Source: Streptomyces ossamyceticus (lineage in GTDB: Bacteria; Actinomycetota; Actinomycetes; Streptomycetales; Streptomycetaceae). Taken from it: a stretch of DNA of 64,000 nt. This document shows, piece after piece, positions 15,387 to 26,313 of this stretch (positions within the stretch are counted from its first letter, which is position 1; each line of letters opens with the position of its first letter). Location of the stretch: positions 1-64,000 of the forward strand of contig NZ_LIQX01000029.1 of assembly GCF_001418475.1 (NCBI RefSeq), written 5' to 3'. Under the pieces are notes generated by a model that was given only the letters and a program-made list of their open reading frames with translations, was not told the origin of the DNA and made no database searches. The translations under genes and the position numbers were made by a program.

Positions 15387-16539
15387 CACTCCGCGCGGGT
15401 CGGTCGTGCCGTCGGCCGTCCGGGTCGTCCGGGTCGTCGTCGTGGCGCAGGAAGCTCTCCAGTCCGGGAGTGAGGCCCGCCACCTGACCGGGCACGATCC
15501 GGTACAGGACGTAGTAGCCCTCGCGTCGGCGCTCCAGCAGTCCGGCGTCCGCCATCACCCGCAGATGTTTCGACAGCGCGGCCTCGCTCACGCCCACGAG
15601 CGGCGCCAACTCCTGCGTGCTGCGCGGTCGTTCGGCGATGAGCCGCAGGGCGCGCAGGCGGGTGTCGTCGGCGAGGGCCCGCAGGATCCCGACGAGCCGG
15701 GCCGGCGGGATGCGCGGGCGGGCCTCCCTGGCGATGGAGGAGACGGGGAAGACCAGGCCGAGGGGCCACGGTCCGTCGCAGTTCACCCGGACGTGCGGCC
15801 AGACGTAGGTGCTCGGTGCGAGGAGAAGCGTGTCGTCCGTACCGATGACGACCTCGTGGTCGTGGGGGCGCTCCAGCCAGAACCGCTCGGCCCGGTGATC
15901 GCTCCGTACCTCGGGCCACAGGCCGCGGAGCATCCCGTACAGGCCGCTGTGCGCGATCTGCTGTCCCGCCTCGCTGACACCGGCGGCCAGGTCGGGCTCG
16001 ATGCGGGCCCATTCGTCCTCGAACGCCTCGCGCCAGTAGCGCTCCAGCATGTCCAGGAACCGCTCCAGCAGGGCGCGGGGGTCGTCCAGGAGCATCGCGG
16101 CCATCGCGGGGTCGCTGTCCCGCAGGGCCAGGGCGCGCAGCCGTTCACGGAGGTCCGGGCGGTGCAGCAGCCGTGGGTCCCTGCCCCCTCCGTCGTCGTC
16201 CGGCCAGGGGGTGAGCAGGGGGACGGCGAACTCCAGGCGGATCAGGTCCGGGTCCGCCGTCCGCAGGGCCGCCAACTCCTCCCGGAAGTCCCGCAGTCCG
16301 CCGGTGGGACGGGGGAAGAGGAACTCGGGGAAGTACGAGCGCACCGCGTACGCGAACGCCTCGATCTCCCTCTTCAGCGCGGGTGACAGTCGCCGCATCG
16401 CGCGCACCCAGCCGTGCTGGACGGGGTGGTGTTTCGGCTCCACCAGCACATGGAGACTGAGGACGGCTTCCATCGCCGGCGAGTAGGCGAAGCCCACCCG
16501 CTCGGCCCCGTCGGCGGGCACCCGGAACACGATCGTCAT
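15382..16539 (-). CDS. ArsR-family (DUF5937) transcriptional regulator
   Basis: The 385-residue protein has an unusual layout for ArsR regulators. A long N-terminal domain (about residues 1-270; starts MTIVFRVPADGAERVGFAYSPAMEAVLSLHVL) is followed by a C-terminal winged helix (LRALADDTRLRALRLIAERPRSTQELAPLVGVSEAALSKHLRVMADAGLL). Streptomycete members pair with MFS exporters, as here. No cysteine metal site is visible in the HTH part, so a non-metal ligand is likely. The ATG at 16539 follows GAGGA. The MFS gene lies 53 bases downstream with a palindrome between them. Confidence 0.85.
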   Translation of the reverse strand: MTIVFRVPADGAERVGFAYSPAMEAVLSLHVLVEPKHHPVQHGWVRAMRRLSPALKREIEAFAYAVRSYFPEFLFPRPTGGLRDFREELAALRTADPDLIRLEFAVPLLTPWPDDDGGGRDPRLLHRPDLRERLRALALRDSDPAMAAMLLDDPRALLERFLDMLERYWREAFEDEWARIEPDLAAGVSEAGQQIAHSGLYGMLRGLWPEVRSDHRAERFWLERPHDHEVVIGTDDTLLLAPSTYVWPHVRVNCDGPWPLGLVFPVSSIAREARPRIPPARLVGILRALADDTRLRALRLIAERPRSTQELAPLVGVSEAALSKHLRVMADAGLLERRREGYYVLYRIVPGQVAGLTPGLESFLRHDDDPDDPDGRRHDRPARSD

Positions 16540-16602
16540 GACCCGTCATCCTCGTCGTGCCGCCCCGCAGGTCAACCGGGACACGCCCCGCGGCGCGGGC
16601 AT

Positions 16603-16641
16603 GCGCCCTCCCGTCCGGCGGACCACCGGTCGGGAGGGCGC
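16603..16641. terminator. Strong hairpin terminator after the GH43-AbfB gene
   Basis: GCGCCCTCCCG (16603-16613) and CGGGAGGGCGC (16631-16641) form a perfect 11-bp stem with a 17-base loop. It lies 27 bases after the stop of the leftward GH43 gene and upstream of the ArsR gene, insulating the two. Confidence 0.75.
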
Positions 16642-16667
16642 GGGGTGTCACGGTCGGACCGGTCGGG

Positions 16668-18101
16668 TCAGCTCGTCACCCGGAAGGTGGCGTCGCCGCG
16701 TCCGGTGGCGTTGGTGATGGGGTCGAGGCGGAGTTGGTAGGCGTAGTGGCGGATGTAGCGGTCGGGGTGGTTGTACGACTGGAACGAGGACCAGCCGGCG
16801 TCTGCGAGCCCGGCGACCTTGTTGAAGGTGGCGTCCGCGGCGAACTGGGCGGTGCCGTCGTTGTACGCGAGCTGGAAGTCGTAGGTGGAGTGGCGCAGGA
16901 AGTAGCCGGGGAAGTTCACCGACTCGAAGGAGACGGTGCCGGAGCCGGTGAGGCCGGGCCTGAGCCGGAACCGGGAGTCGTCGAGGGGGCTGACGTTCGG
17001 GTCGATCCGTGCGTCGAAGTCGGCGTGCCGTACGTAGCGGTCCTGGAAGTTGAACGACTGGAGCCGGTTGGCGGGGGTGTTCGCGTACCGGGTGAGCACC
17101 CGGCTCTGCTCGGCGGCCGTCAGGGTCAGGATCGAGCCGTGGCGCTTCTTCGTGCCGCCCAGGTCGTAGCTTCCCGACGCCGGCAGTCGGTAGGTGGAGG
17201 TGCTGCTCGGGTCGGTCGTGAAGACGGGCAGGTAGCCGCGGCCGGAGGAGTACTGGTCGAGGTAGAGCGTCCACTCGTTGCGGTCACGGAACTTCATCCA
17301 CATCGGGCCCTCGACCTGGGCGCCGGTCAGGCCGATCCCGGAGAGGTTGCCGATGGTGGTCCACGTCCCGAGGATCGAGTTGCTGCCTTCGAGGGTGATC
17401 TGGCCGTCGCCGGAGGCCCGCACGTAGCGGTGGGCGCCGACGCCCGCCGGCATCTCGACGATCTGCGTGTCGATGATCTCCTGGGCGCCGGGCCGCTCGA
17501 TGTAGGTCTGCGGGGTGGTGATGGAGCGGAAGTCGCTGGTGCGGGCGTAGAAGATGCGGTGCTTCGTCGCACCGTTCTGCGGCACGTTCGTCGCCCAGTA
17601 CAGGACGTAGTCGTTGGTGGCCGGGTTCCAGATCGCCTCCGGCGCCCAGGCGTTGCGTCCGTCGGGGATCGCGCCGGCGACGTTCAGCAGCCACGGCTGC
17701 GACCAGGTGACCAGGTCCCTGGACTCCCACACGACGAGGTTGCGGCTGCCGTCGTTGATGGCCTGACTCCAGGTCTGGCCGCAGTCGATGCACAGATCGG
17801 TGGCGATGATCCAGTACTTGCCGCCGTCGGGAGAGCGCACCAGTGCGGGGTCGCGCACGCCGCGGGTGCCCACCGTCGAACGCAGCGTCATGCCGCCGCC
17901 GTTGAGGTCGTTCCAGTGCAGGCCGTCGGTGCTGTGGGAGAAGTAGATCTGCTGCCCGGTCGCTCCCTCCCCGATGAAGTGCGTCATCAGATAGCCCGGG
18001 TCGGCCGCGGCCGCCCTGTCCGGTGCCGTCAGCACCTGGCCGGTGAGGACGAGGGCGACAGCGACCAGCATCGCCGCCAGCCGGGAGAGAACCGCGGACA
18101 T
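16668..18101 (-). CDS. Secreted GH43 arabinan/xylan-active enzyme with AbfB (CBM42) domain
   Basis: The 477-residue product has a signal peptide (LSRLAAMLVAVALVLTGQVLTAPDRAAAA). A five-bladed GH43-type domain follows (about 35-330: YFSHSTDGLHWNDL, VRDPALVRSPDGGKYWIIATD, APEAIWNPATNDYVLYWAT, VEGPMWMKF). The C-terminal AbfB arabinose-binding trefoil (about 345-477) has the repeated YVRHADFDARID, YFLRHSTYDFQLA and YIRHYAYQLRLD motifs. It probably removes or cleaves arabinose-decorated polysaccharide outside the cell. The ATG at 18101 is chosen to begin at the signal peptide. Confidence 0.85.
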   Translation of the reverse strand: MSAVLSRLAAMLVAVALVLTGQVLTAPDRAAAADPGYLMTHFIGEGATGQQIYFSHSTDGLHWNDLNGGGMTLRSTVGTRGVRDPALVRSPDGGKYWIIATDLCIDCGQTWSQAINDGSRNLVVWESRDLVTWSQPWLLNVAGAIPDGRNAWAPEAIWNPATNDYVLYWATNVPQNGATKHRIFYARTSDFRSITTPQTYIERPGAQEIIDTQIVEMPAGVGAHRYVRASGDGQITLEGSNSILGTWTTIGNLSGIGLTGAQVEGPMWMKFRDRNEWTLYLDQYSSGRGYLPVFTTDPSSTSTYRLPASGSYDLGGTKKRHGSILTLTAAEQSRVLTRYANTPANRLQSFNFQDRYVRHADFDARIDPNVSPLDDSRFRLRPGLTGSGTVSFESVNFPGYFLRHSTYDFQLAYNDGTAQFAADATFNKVAGLADAGWSSFQSYNHPDRYIRHYAYQLRLDPITNATGRGDATFRVTS

Positions 18102-18246
18102 GTACGTCTCCTGTCTCTGTGCGGGCACCACCGTGGAGACCCGACGAACGCCATCCCGAGGTGTTCGACTTCTCGGACACCGTTCGCAAGACCGGCCAGA
18201 CGGTAAGGGTGAGCTGAACGAGGCGTCAATACTTCTCACACGACGA

Positions 18247-18282
18247 ACTCCCCGGCCCGCTCGCTCAGTTGGGCCGGGGAGT
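18247..18282. terminator. Perfect 12-bp hairpin terminator after the CNNM cluster
   Basis: ACTCCCCGGCCC (18247-18258) pairs with GGGCCGGGGAGT (18271-18282) around a 12-base loop, 40 bases past the stop of the last leftward CNNM gene. It closes the whole 18.3-23.3 kb run. Confidence 0.75.
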
Positions 18283-18321
18283 CCGGGTGCCGGGTGGTCC
18301 GCGCTGGGACCGCCGGTCGTG

Positions 18322-19341
18322 TCAGACCACCCGTGGTTGCAGATAGCGGGCCAGCAGGTCGTCGAGGCTGACCAGGGCGGTCGGGCGGCCGGTGTCGTCG
18401 CAGATGACCGCGAGGGAGGCGCGGTTCCTGCGGAGCACGTCGATCGCGTCGGCCACCGTGGTGTCCTCGGTCAGCTCGGGGACGGGCCGGGCGAGCGTAC
18501 GGGCCGTGGTGGTCCGTCCCCTGGCCCGGGCCACCAGCGCGTCACGGGCGTGGACCGAGCCGAGGACGGTGCCGCGGTCTCGGACCAGGAGCCGGGTGCG
18601 GTCGTGGTCGGCGGCGGTACGCAGGATGTCCTCGGTGCCGGCGTCCGCGTCGACCGAGGTGATCTCGGCCGCCGGGACGGCGAGATCGCCCACCGGCGTC
18701 TCGGGTTCGGTCAGCGAGCGGGTGATCAGCTCCGAGTCGGTGTCCGTGATGAGGCCGAGCCGCTGCGACTCCTCGACGAGATGGGTGAGCTGCTCACGGT
18801 TGTGCACCGAGGCCAGCTCGTCGCGCGGGGTGACCCGGCACAGGCGCACCAGCGCGTTGCTGACGCGGTTGAGCAGCCCGATCAGCGGACGTACGGTCTT
18901 GACCACGGCCCGGAAGGGCGGGGCCAGCAGCATCGCCGAGCGCTCGGGGCGGGCGATGGCCCACGACTTGGGCGCCATCTCGCCGACCACCATGTGCAGG
19001 AACACCACCACGACCATCGCGAACACGAACGCCACGCCGTAGCTGAGCGTACTGGGCAGGCCCAGGTCGCGCAGCAGCGGGTCGAGCTCGTGGGAGATGG
19101 CGGGCTTGGAGACCGAGCCGAGTCCCAGGGTGCACACGGTGATGCCGAGCTGGGCGCCGGCCAGCATCAGGGACAGCTCGCGCATCCCGGCGAGCGCCGC
19201 CCCGGCGCCTCTGCGGCCCTCCGCCGCGGCTTTCTCCATGCGGTGTCGTTTCGCGGCGACCAGAGCGAACTCGGCGGCCACGAAGAATCCGCTGCCGATC
19301 AGCAGCAGCACGGTGACGAAGAGCGCCATCGGGAAACTCAT
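18322..19341 (-). CDS. CNNM-domain membrane protein with CBS pair (module B, second gene)
   Basis: The 339-residue protein has a CNNM (DUF21) transmembrane domain at about 1-175: VAAEFALVAAKRHRMEKAA, LMLAGAQLGITVCTLGLGSV and VVGEMAPKSWAIARPE. A CBS pair follows to the end. It lacks the C-terminal CorC_HlyC domain found in its larger partner. CNNM/CorC proteins are linked to magnesium (or cobalt) transport and resistance. Its ATG overlaps the stop of the upstream CNNM gene as ATGA, so it should be made in fixed ratio with it, perhaps as a heterodimer. Confidence 0.88.
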   Translation of the reverse strand: MSFPMALFVTVLLLIGSGFFVAAEFALVAAKRHRMEKAAAEGRRGAGAALAGMRELSLMLAGAQLGITVCTLGLGSVSKPAISHELDPLLRDLGLPSTLSYGVAFVFAMVVVVFLHMVVGEMAPKSWAIARPERSAMLLAPPFRAVVKTVRPLIGLLNRVSNALVRLCRVTPRDELASVHNREQLTHLVEESQRLGLITDTDSELITRSLTEPETPVGDLAVPAAEITSVDADAGTEDILRTAADHDRTRLLVRDRGTVLGSVHARDALVARARGRTTTARTLARPVPELTEDTTVADAIDVLRRNRASLAVICDDTGRPTALVSLDDLLARYLQPRVV

Positions 19342-20675
19342 ACCTGCTCCTCCGGCTCAGGTGCCTGCCGTTCGACGCGGACCCGGTCCGGCACATGCCG
19401 GTCGAGCGTGCGGACATCGATCACCGCGCGCCCGCCGTCGGGCAGGTCCACGGTGAGGCGATCGCCGATGGCCGGGAAGCGGCCCAGTCGGTCCACGACG
19501 AGTCCGGCGACGGTGTCGTAGTCGTCCTCCTCGGGCAGTCGGACGCCGGTGGCGTCGGCGATCTCGTCGAGCCGGCGTCCGGCGTCGACCAGCCAGCCCG
19601 CCCCGTCGGCGACGGCGGGTTCCACGACGGTGTCGGACTCGTCGGCGATGTCCCCGACCAGTTCCTCGGCGATGTCCTCGTAGGTCACGATGCCCGCGAC
19701 GCCGCCGTGCTCGTCGAGGACGACGGCGAACTCGTCGTCCTGCTCCCGCATCCGCGTCACCGCGTCCGGCAGGGGCAGGGTGTCCGGCAGGAAGAGCGGG
19801 CGGCGCGCGAGGGCGCCCGCGGTGGTGGCGGTGAGGTCCGCGGCGGGTGTGCGCATCAGCTCCCGGACGCCCAGCACGCCGGTGACGTCGTCCGGGTGAT
19901 CGCCGAGCACCGGGTAGTTGGAGTGGCCGTACTTCGCGATCAGCTCGACCGCCTCGGCCGCGGAGGCGTCCACGCGCACGAACACCGCGTCCACCCGCGG
20001 CACCAGCACCTCGTCCAGGGTCCGCTCGGAGAACTCCAGGGCGTGGTCGAGGAGTTCGGCGGTGTCCTTGGGCAGTTCGCCCCGCTCGTGGGACTCGCCG
20101 ACGAGGTGGCCCAGCTCCTCCAGGGTCGCGCCGTGGTGCAGTTCCTCGACGGGTTCGATGCCGACCCGGCGCAGCAGCTTGTTCGCCGCGCTGTCGAAGA
20201 CGTGCACCACCGGTCCCACGACCTTCAGATAGGCGAGGGTGGAGGCGGCCAGCGACTTCGCGAGGCGCTCCGGGACGGCGATCGCGAGGTTCTTCGGGGC
20301 CAGCTCGCCGAGCACCATCTGCACGACGGTCGCGAGGACGAAGGCGAGTACGACGGAGATGCCGCCGACCGCCCCCTCGGGGATGCCGATTCCGGTCAGG
20401 GCGGGCTCCAGCAACGCCGACACGGACGGCTCGGCGATGAAGCCGACGACCAGACCGGTGACGGTGATGCCCAGCTGCGCTCCGGACAGCATGAACGACA
20501 GCCGCTCCAGCACCTTCAGGGCCCGGGCCGCGCGCCGGTCGCCCGCCTCCGCCTCACGGGCGAGGGCGAGGCGGTCGACGGAGACGTACGCGAACTCCTG
20601 GGCGACGAAGTAGCCGGTGCCGGCGGTCAGGACGAGGACGGCCAGCAGGCCGAGCACGGCGTTCACGGCACTCAT
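19338..20675 (-). CDS. CNNM/CBS/CorC_HlyC membrane protein (module B, first gene)
   Basis: The 445-residue protein shows the CNNM membrane domain (FVAQEFAYVSVDRLALAREAEAG, SFMLSGAQLGITVTGLVVG, VLGELAPKNLAIAVPERLAK), a CBS pair (about 210-335, LDEVLVPRVDAVF and VVLDEHGGVAGIVTYEDIAEELVG), and the CorC_HlyC domain at the C-terminus (about 355-430). Family members export or help transport magnesium. The ATG at 20675 overlaps the stop of a 37-codon leader ORF (ATGA) and lies in the 3' arm of a strong hairpin, so its translation probably depends on the leader. Confidence 0.9.
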   Translation of the reverse strand: MSAVNAVLGLLAVLVLTAGTGYFVAQEFAYVSVDRLALAREAEAGDRRAARALKVLERLSFMLSGAQLGITVTGLVVGFIAEPSVSALLEPALTGIGIPEGAVGGISVVLAFVLATVVQMVLGELAPKNLAIAVPERLAKSLAASTLAYLKVVGPVVHVFDSAANKLLRRVGIEPVEELHHGATLEELGHLVGESHERGELPKDTAELLDHALEFSERTLDEVLVPRVDAVFVRVDASAAEAVELIAKYGHSNYPVLGDHPDDVTGVLGVRELMRTPAADLTATTAGALARRPLFLPDTLPLPDAVTRMREQDDEFAVVLDEHGGVAGIVTYEDIAEELVGDIADESDTVVEPAVADGAGWLVDAGRRLDEIADATGVRLPEEDDYDTVAGLVVDRLGRFPAIGDRLTVDLPDGGRAVIDVRTLDRHVPDRVRVERQAPEPEEQV

Positions 20676-20785
20676 CGGACACCACCCCGCCGTGTGCCGT
20701 GGCCGAGACGGTCGACGAGTCTGTCTCGGCGGGGTGGTCGGGGACTGTGCCCCGGGGAGTCCGTCAGGTCGGCGGACGCGGACAC
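20672..20785 (-). CDS. Leader peptide ORF (37 aa) overlapping the CNNM gene
   Basis: A GTG at 20785, preceded by AAGGAG at ideal spacing (7 bases), opens 37 codons ending in TGA at 20674-20672, which overlaps the ATG of the next CNNM gene as ATGA. The peptide is Arg/Pro/Gly-rich, with SPRPPRRDR in the middle and TRRGGVR at the end. Early codons are GC-ending, but the centre uses codons rare in streptomycetes (CGA, CCA, CGA, AGA), consistent with deliberately slow translation. A similar ORF precedes the paralogous module at 23271-23339 with the shared core Pro-Arg-Pro. The ORF is too short for standard gene finders; the reading is mine and untested. Confidence 0.6.
   Translation of the reverse strand: MSASADLTDSPGHSPRPPRRDRLVDRLGHGTRRGGVR
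20682..20737 (-). promoter_or_regulatory. Leader hairpin covering the ribosome site of the module-B CNNM gene
   Basis: CCACCCCGCCG (20682-20692) pairs with CGGCGGGGTGG (20727-20737), and inside it CCGAGAC (20703-20709) can pair with GTCTCGG (20723-20729). In the leftward transcript one arm contains the only SD-like GGGGTGG ahead of the CNNM ATG. Ribosomes moving through the leader ORF would melt this stem, so the structure suits a translation-coupled switch. Confidence 0.5.
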
Positions 20786-20851
20786 GGGCTTGCTCCTTGT
20801 GTCGATGTGCTGGGTGAACGATCCTGACCGGATCGGTGTTCCCGGGCCTGC

Positions 20852-21937
20852 TCAGCCCCGCTGCGGCGCGGCGCCCGTCGGTGTCGTGCCCGACGACCGC
20901 GCGGCGCCCGGGGACGTCCCGCCCGGCCGTGCCGGTCCGACCAGTTCGGACAGGACGTCCTCCATGGTCACGAAGCCGAGGACCGTGCCGGTCCCGCCGG
21001 TGACGGCGGCGAGGTGGCTGCCGTCGGCGCGCAGGGCGGTGAGGGTGTCGTCCAGCGGGGTGTCGATGCGGACCCGGGTGACCGGGTGGAGGGTGCCGGG
21101 TGGGAACGGCTGGTTCCGTTCGGCGAGGCCCAGGGTGTCCTTGATGTGCAGATAGCCCAGGAGGTCGCCGCCGGGGCCGGTGACCGGGAAGCGGGAGTAG
21201 CCGGCCGCGGCGGCGGTGCGTTCCAGTTCGGCCGGGGTGACGGTGTGGCCGACGGCGCGCATCCGCTGGGCGGGGACGAGGATCTCGCCGACCGGTCGGG
21301 TGCCCAGTTCCAGGGCGTCGCGCAGCCGCTCGCCGTCGGCGGGTGAGAGGAGTCCGGCCTCGCTGGAGTCGAGGACCATCCGGGCGAGCTGGTCGTCGGT
21401 GAACGCCGACGCGACCTCGTCCTTCGGTTCGACGCGCAGCAGCTTCAGCAGGGCGTTGGCGAGGGCGTTGATCCCGAAGATCACCGGCCGCAGGGCCCGG
21501 GTGAGCGCGACCAGGGGCGGGCCGAGGAGCAGCGCGGTGGGGACCGGTGCGGCCAGGGCGATGTTCTTCGGGACCATCTCGCCGATCAGCATGTGCAGAT
21601 AGGTGGCCAGGGTGAGCGCGACGACGAACGCGATGGGGTGCACCAGTCCGTGCGGAACATGCGCCGCCTCGAACGCGGGTTCCATGAGGTGGGCGATGGC
21701 GGGTTCGGCGACGGCGCCGAGCACCAGGGAGGACGCGGTGATGCCGAGCTGGGCCGTGGCCATGAGCGCGGAGATGTGGCGAAGGCCCCACAGGGTCATC
21801 CGGGCTCGCTTGTCGCCCTGTTCGGCACGCGGTTCGATCTGGCTGCGGCGTACGGAGATCAGGGCGAACTCACCGCCGACGAAGAAGGCGTTGGTGAGCA
21901 GGGTCAGCGCGCCGACGGTGAGCTGCAACGCGGTCAT
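20852..21937 (-). CDS. CNNM-domain membrane protein with CBS pair (module A, second gene)
   Basis: The 361-residue protein has a CNNM domain (FVGGEFALISVRRSQIEPRAEQGD, SALMATAQLGITASSLVLG, LIGEMVPKNIALAAPVPT) followed by a CBS pair (VGEILVPAQRMRAVGH, LGFVTMEDVLSELVG) and a short Ala/Gly-rich tail. Like its module-B counterpart it lacks the CorC_HlyC domain. The ATG at 21937 overlaps the stop of the larger upstream CNNM gene (ATGA). It is the downstream partner of an ancient duplication of the two-gene unit. Confidence 0.88.
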   Translation of the reverse strand: MTALQLTVGALTLLTNAFFVGGEFALISVRRSQIEPRAEQGDKRARMTLWGLRHISALMATAQLGITASSLVLGAVAEPAIAHLMEPAFEAAHVPHGLVHPIAFVVALTLATYLHMLIGEMVPKNIALAAPVPTALLLGPPLVALTRALRPVIFGINALANALLKLLRVEPKDEVASAFTDDQLARMVLDSSEAGLLSPADGERLRDALELGTRPVGEILVPAQRMRAVGHTVTPAELERTAAAAGYSRFPVTGPGGDLLGYLHIKDTLGLAERNQPFPPGTLHPVTRVRIDTPLDDTLTALRADGSHLAAVTGGTGTVLGFVTMEDVLSELVGPARPGGTSPGAARSSGTTPTGAAPQRG

Positions 21938-23274
21938 CGGGCGGCCTCCGACCGCTCCCGCACCGGCCGAGCGGCCGGTGCGGTGATACGGACGCGGTCG
22001 GCGCGGTGGTGGTCGACGTCGAGGACGTCCAGCGTCCAGCCGTCGTCCAGGTCCAGCGCGTCACCCTTGGCGGGGATGCGGGCGAGGCGGGTGGCGACCA
22101 GGCCGGCCACGGTCTCGTACGGGCCGTCGGGTGCGGCCAGCCCTATCCCGCCGAGCCGCTCGATGCGGACCGAGCCGTCGGCCTCCCACACCGCTCGGCC
22201 GTCACCTGTCGCCCGGGCGGGCAGCAGGTCGGGGACTTCGACGGGGTCGTGCTCGTCGCGGACCTCGCCGACGACCTCCTCGACGATGTCCTCGACCGTC
22301 GCGACGCCGGCCGTGCCGCCGTACTCGTCGACGACGACGGCCATGGTGCGTGTCTCGCGCAGCCGCTCCAGCAGCCGGTCGGCGGTGAGGCTGTCGGGCA
22401 CGAGCAGGGGTTCGGTGGTCAGCGCGGTGACCGGTGTGGCGGCGCGGCGGGAAGGCTCCAGGGCGAGCACGTCGCGGATATGGACGGTGCCGATGACCTC
22501 GTCCAGGGTGTCGCGGTAGACGGGGAAGCGGGACAGGCCGGTGGCGTGGGTGAGGTTGGCGGCGTCGGCGGCGGTCGCGTGCGCCTCCAGCGCCTTGACG
22601 TCGACGCGCGGCGTCATCACGTTCTCGGCGGTCAGCTCGCCCAGGTGCAGGGTGCGCACGAAAAGCTCGGCGGAGTCCTCCTCCAGGGCGCCCTCGGCGG
22701 CGGAGTGCCGGGCGAGCGCGACGAGTTCCTCGGAGGTGCGGGCGGAGGCCAGTTCCTCGGTCGGTTCCAGGCCGAAGCGGCGCAGGAAGCCGTTGGCCGT
22801 GCCGTTCAGATGGCGGATGAACGGGCCGAAGGCGGCGGTGAAGCCGCGCTGGGGGCCCGCGACGACCTTGGCCACGGCCAGCGGCCGGGAGATCGCCCAG
22901 TTCTTCGGCACCAGCTCGCCCACCACCATCAGCACGACGGTGGAGAGGGCCACGCCCAGCACGGTCGCCGCCGACGGGGCGGCCCCGCCCAGCCCGATCA
23001 CCCGCAAGGGGCCTTCGAGGAGGGCGGCGAGGGACGGCTCGGCGAGCATGCCGATCACCAGCGAGGTGACGGTGATGCCGAGCTGCGCGCCGGACAGCTG
23101 GAACGTCAGTCGGCGTACGGCCTTCAGGGCACCTTCGGCGCCGCGCTCCCCCGCCTCGACCGCGCGTTCCAGCTCGGCGCGCTCGACGGTGGTCAGGGAG
23201 AACTCGGCCGCGACGAACAGCGCGCAGGCCAGGGTGAGGAGCAGAGCGAGCAGGAGCAGCAGGATCTCGGTCAC
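21934..23274 (-). CDS. CNNM/CBS/CorC_HlyC membrane protein (module A, first gene)
   Basis: The 446-residue protein has the same three-part design as the 445-residue paralogue: CNNM domain (FVAAEFSLTTVERAELERAVEAG, TFQLSGAQLGITVTSLVIG, VVGELVPKNWAISRPLAVAK), CBS pair (TAENVMTPRVDVKAL and VVDEYGGTAGVATVEDIVEEVVG) and CorC_HlyC domain (about 350-430). The GTG at 23274 overlaps the stop of a 22-codon leader ORF as GTGA. It heads a leftward run of four CNNM genes; magnesium homeostasis is the likely theme from family knowledge. Confidence 0.9.
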   Translation of the reverse strand: MTEILLLLLALLLTLACALFVAAEFSLTTVERAELERAVEAGERGAEGALKAVRRLTFQLSGAQLGITVTSLVIGMLAEPSLAALLEGPLRVIGLGGAAPSAATVLGVALSTVVLMVVGELVPKNWAISRPLAVAKVVAGPQRGFTAAFGPFIRHLNGTANGFLRRFGLEPTEELASARTSEELVALARHSAAEGALEEDSAELFVRTLHLGELTAENVMTPRVDVKALEAHATAADAANLTHATGLSRFPVYRDTLDEVIGTVHIRDVLALEPSRRAATPVTALTTEPLLVPDSLTADRLLERLRETRTMAVVVDEYGGTAGVATVEDIVEEVVGEVRDEHDPVEVPDLLPARATGDGRAVWEADGSVRIERLGGIGLAAPDGPYETVAGLVATRLARIPAKGDALDLDDGWTLDVLDVDHHRADRVRITAPAARPVRERSEAAR

Positions 23275-23339
23275 CGCGCCACCCCCGCTCCGTCGTGAGG
23301 TCGGGGCACGCTGCGGCCGGTACTGGGAGGCTCACCCAT
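23271..23339 (-). CDS. Leader peptide ORF (22 aa) overlapping the CNNM gene
   Basis: An ATG at 23339, with GAAGGAG 13 bases upstream, opens 22 codons ending in TGA at 23273-23271, overlapping the GTG start of the CNNM gene (GTGA). The peptide begins MGEPPSTG and contains SVPRPHDGAGVAR. It is Pro/Arg-containing, with a Pro-Pro pair and rare CGA, CCT and GGA codons. CCCCGACC, coding Pro-Arg-Pro, is shared with the 37-codon leader of the other module. Identical placement in two diverged paralogous modules argues that both leaders are real. Confidence 0.6.
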   Translation of the reverse strand: MGEPPSTGRSVPRPHDGAGVAR

Positions 23340-23520
23340 CGGGGGTCTTCGGCTCCTTCGTCGCTCGGTGGGTCGGGAAGTCTTCGCAAGCTCCGTTCCC
23401 ATAGTAAAGGGACGGCAAAACCCGCTGTTCATGTCGTCACGGTCACATCGGCGACGGTTTTCGGACTTTCCTGTTCCGGATCCCGCGACGGCGCCTCGAC
23501 GGGCGTTCCCGACCCTATGC

Positions 23521-23538
23521 TTCTACTCGCCTGTAGAA
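23521..23538. promoter_or_regulatory. BlaI-box-like palindrome upstream of spo0M
   Basis: TTCTACTCGCCTGTAGAA is an 18-bp dyad. Its 16-bp core TCTACTCGCCTGTAGA matches the palindrome before blaI/tatA (TCTACAGTGCTGTAGA, 26431-26446) at 12 of 16 positions, with identical CTAC-N6-GTAG spacing. It lies 77 bases before the spo0M ATG, so the BlaI-type repressor encoded 2.4 kb away may also control spo0M. Confidence 0.5.
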
Positions 23539-23561
23539 CAACCGTGGATTCCCGGTTGTTC
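23536..23561. promoter_or_regulatory. Perfect 9-bp inverted repeat in the spo0M leader
   Basis: GAACAACCG (23536-23544) and CGGTTGTTC (23553-23561) flank an 8-base spacer, overlapping the end of the BlaI-like dyad. It could be an operator for a second regulator or an mRNA hairpin 53 bases before the ATG. Confidence 0.4.
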
Positions 23562-23614
23562 CGCGACGCATGACCGCATGACTTGGACGCACGAAAGAAG
23601 GAGTGAACGCCGCG

Positions 23615-24604
23615 ATGGTGTTCAAACGGCTGCTCGGCTCGCTCGGTCTGGGCGGGCCCACGGTGGACACGGTTCTCGACCCGGGCCCGGCCCGGCCGGG
23701 CGGCAGCCTGTCGGGGCAGGTCCGCCTCAAGGGCGGCGACGCCGACTTCGAGATCGAGCACATCACCCTGGAGCTGGTGGCGCGGGTCGAGGCCGAGCAC
23801 GAGGGAGGCGAGAGCGAGGGGACCGTCCCCTTCGACCGGTTCGTCGTCGGCGGAGGGTTCCGGCTCGCGGCGGGCGAGGAGCGCACCGTGCCGTTCAGCG
23901 CGACGCTGCCGTGGGAGACCCCGATCAGCGAGCTGTACGGCCAGCCGCTGGGCATCGTCCTCGGGGTGCGCACGGAACTCGGGGTGGCCGGAGCGAGGGA
24001 CAAGGGTGACCTCGACCAGCTCACGGTGACGCCGCTGCCCGTACAGGAGGCGATCCTGGAGGCGCTGGGGCAGCTCGGTTTCGGCTTCCGGTCCGCCGAC
24101 CTGGAGTACGGCCGCATCTCCGGCACGGGCCAGCAGCTGCCCTTCTACCAGGAGATCGAGATCACCCCGGCGCCCGCGTACGCGTCACGGGTCAACGAGA
24201 TCGAACTGACGTTCCTGGCCACTCCGGGCGGCATGGAGGTCGTCCTGGAGGCCGACAAGCGCGGCGGGTTCCTCTCCGAGGGCCGTGACGCCGTCACCCG
24301 GTTCACCGTCGCCCACGACGGCGTCGAGCACCAGGACTGGACCGCCCTCGTCGACGGCTGGATCCACCGGCTGGTGGAGAGCAGGCCCGCGTACGGCTCC
24401 CCCGCCGGGTACGCCGCCGAGGGCCACTACGGCCACGGCGAGCACCACGAGGAGGGGCGCCGGTCCGGTCCCGGTATGGGCACCGCCGTGGCCGCGGGGG
24501 CAGCAGGCCTGGCGGTCGGTGTCGTCGGTGGGATGGTCGCCGCCGAAGTCGTCGACGAGGTCGGGGACTTCTTCGAGGGCGACGAGGAGGAGGACGAGGG
24601 CTGA
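23615..24604 (+). CDS. Spo0M-like sporulation-control protein
   Basis: The 329-residue protein has an arrestin-like Spo0M domain through about residue 245: MVFKRLLGSLGLGGPTVDTVLDPGPARPGGSLSGQVRLKGGD, VPFSATLPWETPISELYGQPLG, ELTFLATPGGMEVVLEADKRGGFLSEG. A His/Gly-rich linker, a hydrophobic Gly/Ala segment (AVAAGAAGLAVGVVGGMVAAEVV, perhaps membrane-associated) and an acidic tail follow. In Bacillus, Spo0M acts in sporulation control; the role here is unknown. The ATG at 23615 is chosen because AAGAAGGAG sits 11 bases upstream; a GTG four codons earlier overlaps that site. Two palindromes lie in its leader. Confidence 0.82.
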   Translation: MVFKRLLGSLGLGGPTVDTVLDPGPARPGGSLSGQVRLKGGDADFEIEHITLELVARVEAEHEGGESEGTVPFDRFVVGGGFRLAAGEERTVPFSATLPWETPISELYGQPLGIVLGVRTELGVAGARDKGDLDQLTVTPLPVQEAILEALGQLGFGFRSADLEYGRISGTGQQLPFYQEIEITPAPAYASRVNEIELTFLATPGGMEVVLEADKRGGFLSEGRDAVTRFTVAHDGVEHQDWTALVDGWIHRLVESRPAYGSPAGYAAEGHYGHGEHHEEGRRSGPGMGTAVAAGAAGLAVGVVGGMVAAEVVDEVGDFFEGDEEEDEG

Positions 24605-24753
24605 CGGCCTTGACGCGCCGGACGGCGGCCGACTCCCCTCGGGGCGCCGGCCGGGAGACCGCCCGGCGCGCCGGCGGCCGTCGCCCAGGAGCTCCGCAGG
24701 GCTTGCGTAGCGACCACCGGAGGACTTCCGGCGCCGGCGCGACAGGCCGCCCC

Positions 24754-24945
24754 AGGACTCACCGCGTCCGCGTGACAGCCGCGCGAGGACTCACCACAGC
24801 GTCCGCGCCACCGCCACGCGAGGACCCACAGCGCTCGCGTGACAGCCACGCGAGGACTCACGGCGCTCGCGTGACACCCTCGCGAGGACTCACGGCGCTC
24901 GCGTGACACCCTCGCGAGGACTCACGGCGCTCGCACGGCACTCGG
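24754..24945. repeat. 32-bp tandem repeat with built-in hairpins
   Basis: Six imperfect copies begin at 24754, 24786, 24821, 24853, 24885 and 24917. Those at 24853 and 24885 are identical. Each later unit begins AGGACTCACGGCGCTCGCG and can form CGCGAG-N11-CTCGCG stem-loops. The array fills the gap between the convergent spo0M and M56 genes. It may act in termination; no protein-coding sense was found. Confidence 0.8.
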
Positions 24946-24984
24946 CCGGAAGGCTTGCGGTTCCCTGCCGCGGTCGGCCAGGGC

Positions 24985-25917
24985 TCACAGCGGCGTGGCC
25001 GCGTACAGGATGAGAGCCATGGTGACGGCGGAGTTCGCGGAGGACAGGGCGGAGACTGCGGCGCCGGCGGCCGCGCCCCAGGCGGCGAGGCCCACGCTCG
25101 TGAACACCGACGGCCAGCTCCGCGGCACGGGCTCCGGCGCCAGCAGCGCGGCCACCCTGCGCGGCACCGGACCGGGCACGGCGAACCCCGCGAACGTCCC
25201 GGCCGGGGTGGAGCGGGAGACGAGCGCCGCCTTGCCTATGGCGCGGGCCACGGCCCGCCGGCTGCCGACCGACCGCGCGGCCTCCTCGTCCGCCCACCGC
25301 TCCACCGTGTACGACACGGCCGTGCACAGGGGCCGCAGGAACGGGTTGGCCCGCGCGGCCAGTTGCACGGCCAGCAGGAACCGGTGGTGCCGGGCGACGA
25401 GATGGGCGCGCTCGTGCGCGAACAGCGCCCGCCGCTCGGCAGGTTCGAGGCGGGCCAGCATGCCGGTGGTCACCACCACCCGGCCGTGCCGCCGCCCGGG
25501 AAGCGCGTACGCGTACGGCGTCTCGTCCGCCAGGACGGCGACCGACGTGGCCGGCAGCCCGGCCAGGGCCCGGTGTGCGGCGCGGCGGGTGCGGCCGTGT
25601 CGCCACCCCGTCCGGGCGCAGGCCAGCACGACCGCGAGCAGCGCCGGGATGGCGAGCTTCCCGGCGACCTCGTCGTACGGGACCGCTTCTCGGACCTCGG
25701 GGTCCGACCAGCCGTCGGGAAGGGGATTGCCGGGCAGCTGGGCGGTGCCGACCACCATCAGCAGCCCGAGCGACACCGTGCTGCACGCCGCCATCACGGC
25801 GGCGACGGCGGTCAGCAGCCGGGTGGCGGTCCGCGGGTGCAGCCGCTGCTCGGCGAGGCGGGCGATCGGCCATGCCGTGAACGGCAGGACGAGCGGAAGA
25901 AAGACGAACACCCCCAT
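24985..25917 (-). CDS. M56-family membrane metallopeptidase (BlaR1-like)
   Basis: The 310-residue protein has hydrophobic segments at about 1-15, 35-60, 88-100 and 275-305, and a zinc peptidase site HERAH at 168-172 with a downstream ERWADEEAAR motif. In BlaR1/MecR1 systems such a protease responds to a signal and inactivates the BlaI repressor. No penicillin-binding sensor domain is fused here, so the signal is unknown. It lies 6 bases after the BlaI gene on the same strand, the usual gene order. Confidence 0.87.
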   Translation of the reverse strand: MGVFVFLPLVLPFTAWPIARLAEQRLHPRTATRLLTAVAAVMAACSTVSLGLLMVVGTAQLPGNPLPDGWSDPEVREAVPYDEVAGKLAIPALLAVVLACARTGWRHGRTRRAAHRALAGLPATSVAVLADETPYAYALPGRRHGRVVVTTGMLARLEPAERRALFAHERAHLVARHHRFLLAVQLAARANPFLRPLCTAVSYTVERWADEEAARSVGSRRAVARAIGKAALVSRSTPAGTFAGFAVPGPVPRRVAALLAPEPVPRSWPSVFTSVGLAAWGAAAGAAVSALSSANSAVTMALILYAATPL

Positions 25918-25923
25918 GAGGTC

Positions 25924-26313
25924 TCAGTCTTCCCCTTCGCCCCCCGCCTGCCCGAGCAGTTCTCTCAGGAGTCGCTCGTCGTCCGGCTCCAGGGAGGTGA
26001 CGAAGCTGGCCAGGACCGCCTCACGGTCGCTCTGCCCGTCGAGCACCTTGCGCATCTTGTGCGCGGCCAGGCCCGCCTGGTCCGAGGCCGGGGTCCACAC
26101 GAAGGACCGGCCGGCACGCTCACGGGTCACCGCGCCCTTGGCCAGCAACCGGGTGAGGATCGTGATCACCGTCGTGTAGGCGAGGTCGCCGCCCAGGCGT
26201 TCCTGCACCCATCCGGCGCTCGCCGGGCCGTCCGCCTCGCGCAGGGCCGACAGGACGAGCGCCTCCAGCTCCCCCTGGCCCCGCCGCGGGCCGCGCTGCC
26301 GCCGGTCCGTCAC
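25924..26313 (-). CDS. BlaI/MecI-family repressor
   Basis: The 129-residue winged-helix protein has GELEALVLSALREADGPASAGWVQERLGGDLAYTTVITILTRLLAKGAVTRERAGRSFVW as its DNA-binding part and a helical dimer tail. The GTG at 26313 follows GGGAGG, and homologues begin similarly; longer upstream starts are open but lack a ribosome site. A palindrome with the TACA-N4-TGTA signature of BlaI operators lies 118 bases upstream. It is presumably cleaved under control of the M56 protease encoded next. Confidence 0.88.
   Translation of the reverse strand: MTDRRQRGPRRGQGELEALVLSALREADGPASAGWVQERLGGDLAYTTVITILTRLLAKGAVTRERAGRSFVWTPASDQAGLAAHKMRKVLDGQSDREAVLASFVTSLEPDDERLLRELLGQAGGEGED

Follow-up and report, generated by a model that had tools for sequence, protein, structure and literature searches.

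According to a 2025 Salmonella study, high Mg2+ induces mgpA and corC, and the leader YoaL overlaps the upstream region of mgpA (yoaE), where a stop replacing the YoaL start codon lowers MgpA; the study describes the control of these two genes as still unclear (PMC12421838). In MgtL, the residues EPDP cause ribosome drop-off at low Mg2+ (PMC11282234). Here we analyzed a 64,000-nucleotide stretch of Streptomyces ossamyceticus (contig NZ_LIQX01000029.1, positions 1 to 64,000; hereafter the window), which carries two pairs of CNNM genes, modules A and B, each preceded by a short leader open reading frame (ORF). No description of Streptomyces CNNM leaders was found in the open-access literature, a coverage that leaves most subscription journals outside. 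The predicted module B leader ORF keeps its reading frame across orthologues, with its end on the start of CNNM, and we consider it very probable, from its sequence, that it serves as a translational coupling switch for CNNM. The model that we find best, with the odds evenly poised, is that translation of CNNM is coupled to the leader and that early drop-off of ribosomes, probably governed by Mg2+, acts as the gate.

The initial annotation had described the module B leader as an AAGGAG 7 bases before a GTG, 37 codons, and an ATGA overlap with CNNM, and this layout was recovered on the minus strand at 20785..20672. The TGA stop lies within ATGA 20675..20672, and the ATG at 20675 starts the 445-amino-acid CNNM protein. 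The core SPRPPRRDR is written AGT CCC CGA CCA CCC CGC CGA GAC AGA, and its CGA, CCA, and AGA codons are rare, as had been claimed, with 9, 2, and 1 occurrences among the 1595 codons of the window's four CNNM genes. The flanking leader codons, described as GC-ending, are not consistently so: of the 36 codons that follow the start, 10 have A or T in third position. Across five leader groups, A/T third positions average 28–35% over codons 2–21, compared with 5–6% in CNNM genes.

Conservation was assessed in 150 genomes of the genus, the window's included, each of which gave some match to the module B protein. Orthologue grade, set at an E-value below 1e-150, was reached in 41 genomes, and all 41 loci were read, with genome G108 set aside for a partial match with an internal stop. 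At 40 of the 41 loci a leader ends in overlap with the start of CNNM; these are 38 B-type leaders (L030 and L048 among them) and two of an MGEPP type (L036 and L043). The B-type leaders range from 13 to 38 codons, and therefore indels have preserved the frame; the frameshifting indels that would have spoken against the leader were not seen in these 40 loci. Their consensus reads (L/V)SARSTDP[PS]GHSPRPSR...GTRRGGVR, with Asp at the acidic-Pro column in 31 of 38. At L036 and L043, an MGEPP leader typical of other CNNM operons stands in for the usual B leader, a swap which suggests that leader types may be interchangeable.

Searched against 84,980 species genomes, a degenerate 25-base pattern of the core gave 59 matches, every record being titled Streptomyces. 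The frame ends in NTGA in all 59 contigs (48 ATGA, 6 GTGA, 3 TTGA, and 2 CTGA). A leader start stands behind an AGG/GGA-like site in 58 of them, the exception being L238, whose stretch stops 37 bases from the match. Next comes the CNNM start, in 58 of 59 contigs (56 by motif, plus L199 and L202), while the stretch of L225 is cut off at this point. The window's own leader (VSASA..TDSPGHSPRPPRRD) has its closest counterparts in L202 (S. neyagawaensis), L214, and L220.

Table 1. Positions of the leader, pairing, and gene features of modules A and B in the window.
Feature	Position	Strand	Remarks
Leader ORF of module B	20672..20785	minus	37 codons; peptide VSASADLTDSPGHSPRPPRRDRLVDRLGHGTRRGGVR; stop overlapping CNNM start (ATGA)
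AAGGAG, Shine-Dalgarno-like	20793..20798	minus	7 bases ahead of GTG start (20785); AGGAG-like sites precede B-type orthologues too
Thr-Asp-Ser-Pro, residues 8–11	20753..20764	minus	window's acidic-Pro version; many orthologues TDPP or TDPS
P3 5' arm ACCACCCCGCC	20728..20738	minus	within R-P-P-R codons; complementary to CNNM ribosome-binding region
P3 3' arm GGCGGGGTGGT	20681..20691	minus	5 bases upstream of CNNM ATG
Possible hairpin P1, leader start	20759..20783	minus	GUCCG 20783..20779 with CGGAC 20763..20759
Possible P4, enclosing CNNM start	20666..20699	minus	CGGCAC 20699..20694 with GTGCCG 20671..20666
CNNM-CBS-CorC_HlyC protein, 445 amino acids, first gene of module B	19338..20675	minus	PF01595 (E-value 3e-37), PF00571, PF03471
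Second CNNM-CBS protein of module B, 339 amino acids	18322..19341	minus	start overlaps stop of first gene
Leader ORF of module A	23271..23339	minus	22 codons; peptide MGEPPSTGRSVPRPHDGAGVAR; stop overlapping GTG of CNNM A (GTGA)
Glu-Pro-Pro codons of leader A	23325..23333	minus	GAG CCT CCC; CCUCC resembles anti-Shine-Dalgarno
CNNM-CBS-CorC_HlyC protein, 446 amino acids, first gene of module A	21934..23274	minus	domain matches
Second CNNM-CBS protein of module A, 361 amino acids	20852..21937	minus	domain matches

The middle codons of many full-length B leaders can, by predicted base pairing, form a helix (P3) with the CNNM ribosome-binding region. We examined it in an alignment (A1) of 21 of the 38 B-type leaders, all full-length; 15 shortened or divergent leaders, L012 (disturbed arm), and L048 (near copy of L047) were left out. 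In the two halves of P3, 97.6% and 95.2% of cells were paired (96% overall), with compensatory changes at three of the 11 pairs, namely A-U to G-C once and C-G to U-A twice. Within the arm, residue changes (S to P, F, or L) occur while pairing persists. For the whole named structure, 94.2% of cells were paired, compared with 34–56% when it was slid along the alignment, and none of 500 column shuffles reached the observed paired cells, covarying cells, or covariation score. RNAalifold extended the pairing toward the CNNM start. Every cell of P1 was paired and four of its five pairs are invariant, hence covariation is uninformative there. P4 had 95.2% of cells paired, is nearly invariant, and shows no pair changed on both sides; it may form a pseudoknot with P3 or compete with another pairing of GTGCC.

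In the 59 contigs, all 11 pairs of P3 are present in 49, with the 3' arm at one distance in 53. A reversed-arm control on the same contigs reached a maximum of 10 of 11 pairs (four contigs) and nine of 11 in 32, and therefore nine or ten pairs carry little meaning. Five short leaders (L010, L017, L024, L040, and L049) are without the core and the full helix (6–8 of 11 pairs) and keep the overlap, with DP present in four. The minimum free energy of single leaders was no better than that of shuffles (z −0.16 for B and +1.66 for A), and the structure claims therefore lean on the alignments, not on folding energy. Rfam gave no match at the gathering threshold in the 64-kb window and none at E-values up to 1 in 20560–20960, which leaves a known Rfam element or riboswitch unsupported.

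The Pro/Arg core had been read as a sign of selection for a stalling peptide. The core is not confined to this strain: in the aligned three-residue position of the 38 B-type leaders we counted PRP 16 times, PGP seven, PQP two, and other sequences 13, with a middle residue of Arg in 20, Gly in seven, and Gln in two. The ratio of nonsynonymous to synonymous differences (pN/pS) was 0.70 over 14 core columns and 0.87 over the 16 others, which is weak peptide constraint only. Synonymous choices were close to fixed at several columns, with AGA for 20 of 22 Arg (column 3), ACG for 29 of 29 Thr (column 5), and AGT for 22 of 24 Ser (column 15). Given this pairing of weak peptide constraint with invariant synonymous choices, the leader sequence is held largely at the nucleotide level. 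Rare codons concentrate at the core, where CGA writes 14 of 20 Arg and CCA 18 of 31 Pro. We suggest that the Pro/Arg run acts, in part at least, as an anti-ribosome-binding-site arm. Because these codons would form an RNA hairpin arm over the CNNM start, their presence, judged from sequence, is not by itself evidence of a ribosome-stalling peptide. The 16 leaders with the full P3 comprise 12 with PRP and four with PGP, and the other 22 include four with PRP, three with PGP, and two with PQP. Since L013, L031, and L037 keep PRP with 8, 7, and 9 of the 11 pairs, the helix alone does not explain PRP.

An invariant PRP core was not found, the motif being absent from all six B leaders of other genera examined, and in the remaining types it occurs in two of 19 A, one of 46 C410, and none of 23 C155 leaders (these types are introduced below). 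The A leader of the window has VPRP and its orthologue L107 also carries PRP, with IPCP, IPGP, IPTP, and VPCG among the other versions. The initial annotation's 8-mer common to A and B, CCCCGACC, does lie in the window's module A leader at 23306..23299, and is found in 11 of 38 B-type leaders; across orthologues it is limited to one of 19 A-type leaders, the window's own, and one of 46 C410-type, so we rejected it as a sign of common selection. The case for a stalling peptide thus stands in its conserved leader ORF, rare codons, strict overlap, and PRP-like core elsewhere, and falls short in that the core varies and doubles as an RNA arm. RAPP or RAPG was found in none of 131 leaders in five groups, leaving a RAPP-type arrest peptide unsupported. 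ApcA and ApdA are labelled as arrest peptides of this type.

The window genome (9.3 Mb in 1008 contigs) has nine CNNM matches, eight of which form four pairs, and each pair has its own overlapping leader upstream. On contigs C410 and C155 these are MGEPPSSRPG...TEVTR and MDGSSCSTCAAPSRDIEAAA, respectively. An early acidic-Pro motif (MGEPPS, STDPP, or MDDPSG), a rare AGU codon, and the NTGA overlap recur in the paralogous leaders, though not in all. In three families, [DE]P within residues 2–10 was found in nine of 12, 12 of 19, and five of nine leaders, compared with 1.5, 2.6, and 1.3 in composition-preserving shuffles, figures to be read as counts and not probabilities as the 40 leaders (12, 19, and 9) were hand-picked and related. 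By type, [DE]P occurs in 23 of 38 B-type and nine of 23 C155-type leaders. An in-frame AGT Ser in the first 20 codons was present in 29 of 38 B, 23 of 23 C155, five of five B leaders from other genera, and 21 of 21 leaders of the actinobacterial family f44, as well as in 18 of 19 A and 39 of 46 C410 leaders, the last two counts being partly biased as most of these loci were fetched by a pattern demanding AGY (AGC included). AGT makes up six of 463 Ser codons in the B CNNM genes of the genus. The window has in-frame AGU Ser codons at 20746..20744 and 23324..23322, and in leaders this codon is often followed by ACC or CCC.

A DNA pattern for MGEPPS, the start of the A and C410 leaders, gave 54 matches in 45 of 61 genomes of the genus, and the backwards pattern gave two. 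All 30 of the loci read from these matches overlap a CNNM gene, 29 by four bases and one by TGATG, as do 22 of 24 further loci of the same genus, L103 and L091 excepted; at L103 the pattern occurs by chance. The 16 genomes lacking the exact pattern contributed 18 orthologous loci; no leader was obtained at L111 and L121, and the other 16 have an overlapping one, with [DE]P in 13, as in MGDPPS, MEPPS, MDEPPS, MGEPPG, MGEPPR, and MGEPSG. In 296 genomes of the class, the pattern had four matches outside the genus, none before CNNM genes. The fourth codon of MGEPPS is written CCT in 60 of 69 rows, which were chosen by a regular expression demanding an early Pro, so that [DE]PP counts for C410 and A are biased upward and the 13 of 16 is less biased. 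Pairing was examined in 17 of 19 A-type leaders (alignment A2, with L059 and L110 left out) and 18 of 46 C410-type leaders (A3). In A-type leaders the Ser-Arg-Ala codons can pair with the GUG start region, and in C410-type leaders the CCUCC of Pro-Pro can pair with the CNNM Shine-Dalgarno, with little covariation in either.

In other genera of the Streptomyces family, VSAQETDPPSTGPSR precedes the B gene at six of seven loci, with ETDPPST present and GPSR in place of PRP. Their C155-type genes have leaders beginning MDDPSGST, MDEPSGST, or MDGPSGST, whereas the Streptomyces versions read MDGSSCST or MDGPSCST; the NTGA overlap was also found in the C155-type leaders examined. In a third leader type, MDGSSCSTCAAP... 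(L003 and L126–L137), most Streptomyces loci show one or two cysteines around the AGU. Such a cysteine-bearing leader could respond to a signal other than that of the acidic-Pro leaders.

Family f44 (L157 and L254–L274) carries a 30-codon leader, MSAASDAPSDSPRPSG..., with the CNNM overlap kept. Leaders of the MSAASDAP type were found in 21 of its 30 loci, and in all 21 of those whose CNNM protein is at least 77% identical to that of G371; the other nine, with other CNNM types, gave an overlapping ORF in three. The f44 core is SPRPSG, SRRPSG, or SPGPSG, mostly with AGG CCT TCG codons (PRP in 17, RRP in three, and PGP in one of 21), and a hairpin AGGCC-UUCG-GGCCU, read by eye, covers the PRPSG codons in most loci. 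Outside the Streptomyces family, a scan of 30 loci from 29 genomes gave overlapping ORFs in nine, some of which look like chance (L156, four codons), and several loci were read in the wrong orientation. Overlapping leaders there include L143, L151, L152, and L157. In another family (L143, L144, L147, and L151), a leader type exemplified by MNDSGDTGCSPNRSARVGAPVGVDR overlaps the CNNM start and has Asp near its own start.

We propose that the closed P3 helix would allow little CNNM translation, and that a ribosome finishing the leader would open the helix and re-initiate at the overlapping NTGA. Less surely, at low Mg2+ the early acidic-Pro codons (TDPP; TDSP in the window; GEPPS in module A) would make ribosomes leave or pause early, and the leader would stay unfinished and CNNM off. 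With ample Mg2+ the leader would be completed and the exporter-type protein made. The drop-off step is proposed because EPDP of MgtL causes drop-off at low Mg2+ in the portion of that work available (PMC11282234), and we infer the same principle, ribosome instability as an Mg2+ sensor, with a reversed output. An on state at high Mg2+ would match the direction reported for Salmonella mgpA and corC and the role proposed for YoaL in the accessible text (PMC12421838). By analogy, we hold the acidic-Pro motif to be the gate at slightly under even chances, and Mg2+ to be the signal a little less confidently still. Our broadest proposal is a tentative one, on the doubtful side: an old leader family in several actinobacterial families, marked by early acidic-Pro, AGU Ser, and NTGA, would stand before paralogous CNNM genes and switch exporter-type proteins on at high Mg2+, as a mirror image of MgtL that is a translational instead of a transcriptional attenuator.

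Several observations weigh against this proposal. One of the 41 module B loci, L032, has no overlapping leader. With the motif widened to [DE]S?P, residues 2–10 contain it in 26 of 38 B-type leaders and 12 are without it; the window's TDSP ends at residue 11, one beyond the ten-residue limit. No [DE]P is present in 14 of 23 C155-type leaders, nor in three of the 16 A/C410-type leaders from genomes without the exact MGEPPS pattern (MGES, MGGPP, and VGPAS). The CCT bias, together with CCUCC as a possible anti-Shine-Dalgarno, means that RNA selection can explain part of MGEPPS. At L091, MGEPPST stands behind AAGGAG with no CNNM gene within about 400 bases after it, which suggests an orphan or decayed copy. 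Just 16 of 38 B-type leaders can form all 11 pairs of P3 at the window's position, and column shuffles matched the number of covarying pairs in 16 of 500 cases and the number of pair types in 137. The modelled effect on accessibility is small: across 30 leaders, the CNNM start region is 25% unpaired in the free RNA, 33% once a ribosome stands near codon 8, and 38% with one at PRP. When leader-to-start duplex scores were compared with mononucleotide shuffles, the share below a cut of z −1.65 was 58% of 19 A, 27% of 37 B, 9% of 46 C410, 4% of 23 C155, and none of five B leaders from other genera, so that the predicted duplex excess appears clear for the A type and, beyond it, for no more than a minority of B. 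Finally, we assume that the CNNM substrate is a metal. For all four CNNM proteins in the window, NCBIfam gives the polyamine exporter PaeA as best match, far below cut-off, and the nearest scores, every one below cut-off, include PaeA, GldE, and CorC.

Short ORFs are abundant in this GC-rich DNA, with 77 of at least 25 codons overlapping 16000–26000, yet a leader in 40 of 41 loci and an NTGA end in 59 of 59 contigs make a chance ORF scarcely credible, and on this sequence conservation we reject it. A more serious rival, though one we think unlikely, is an arrest peptide, in which a stall within SPRP(P/S)R would cover the P3 5' arm and free the CNNM ribosome-binding region. Such a model gives a sign opposite to that of drop-off, since a stall would mean on. 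A ribosome at PRP would cover the arm and yields the largest modelled gain in accessibility (0.25 to 0.38), SPRPS recurs in other codons (AGG CCT TCG) in f44, where PRP is present in 17 of 21, rare CGA and CCA sit at the core, and L013, L031, and L037 keep PRP lacking the full helix. The aligned core is nevertheless PRP in under half of the B-type leaders, is replaced by GPSR in other genera, is dropped by the short leaders, and is nearly absent from the A, C410, and C155 types, and the RAPP and RAPG motifs are missing from the 131 leaders.

We judge it similarly improbable that the leader is a fixed coupling device with no sensor, keeping CNNM at a low constant level through termination-reinitiation and a hidden ribosome-binding site. 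The overlap is indeed better conserved than any peptide motif, and the pN/pS of 0.70–0.87 fits, but this would leave unexplained the recurrence of early acidic-Pro and the conserved rare codons AGA, AGT, CGA, CCA, and CCT. The many near-invariant synonymous sites, the raised A/T third positions, and the P1 and P3 pairing kept in 21 leaders speak for a riboswitch-like RNA element that itself binds the signal, with the reading frame secondary; this is very improbable in our estimate, as there is no Rfam match in the window and frame and overlap survive in L017, L024, and L040, which have lost most of the RNA. Early drop-off on a coupled leader remains the reading that we prefer.

The first gene of each module has the CNNM, CBS, and CorC_HlyC domains, while the second genes of A and B matched CNNM and CBS with no CorC_HlyC match. 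The leaders before these genes illustrate how an anti-ribosome-binding-site arm may mimic a Pro/Arg stalling peptide, and the genus offers many natural leader variants for testing ribosome instability as a general Mg2+ meter.

Among known systems, YoaL of Enterobacteria is alike in being a short leader; the exporter-type gene whose upstream region it overlaps has a CorC domain, and loss of leader translation lowers the downstream protein (PMC12421838). It differs in phylum, and the membrane domain of MgpA is TerC, not CNNM; the likeness drawn here is one of description. The portion of the YoaL work available mentions neither an anti-ribosome-binding-site helix nor an acidic-Pro motif, and Mg2+ sensing by the leader is open there too (PMC12421838). 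CorC (YbeX) of E. coli is likewise a CorC-domain protein proposed to be made in larger amounts at high Mg2+, but through an N-terminal destabilizing sequence inside the protein itself and with no separate leader, according to the same portion (PMC12421838). ApcA and ApdA are, like the CNNM leaders, actinobacterial upstream ORFs thought to act via the nascent chain, in the accessible parts of their reports (PMC7897499, PMC10951233). Their N termini carry membrane or signal segments, their C-terminal stretch is conserved, and they stand before yidC2 or secDF2 (PMC7897499, PMC10951233). The leaders studied here are without RAPP or RAPG and precede CNNM genes. MgtL of mgtA (Salmonella and E. coli) carries acidic-Pro codons at the very start, EPDP, which destabilize ribosomes at low Mg2+ (PMC11282234); for the CNNM leaders the same is proposed by analogy. 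Unlike the leaders here, MgtL acts by terminating transcription through Rho and switches on an importer when Mg2+ is low; a CNNM leader overlaps its gene and would switch an exporter-type gene off under that condition. Between leader and CNNM there is no room for a Rho-dependent terminator, the stop overlapping the start, although Rho sites themselves were not searched. By kind, the module B leader is a leader-ORF translational attenuator; its working resembles that of MgtL and YoaL, and it belongs to neither.

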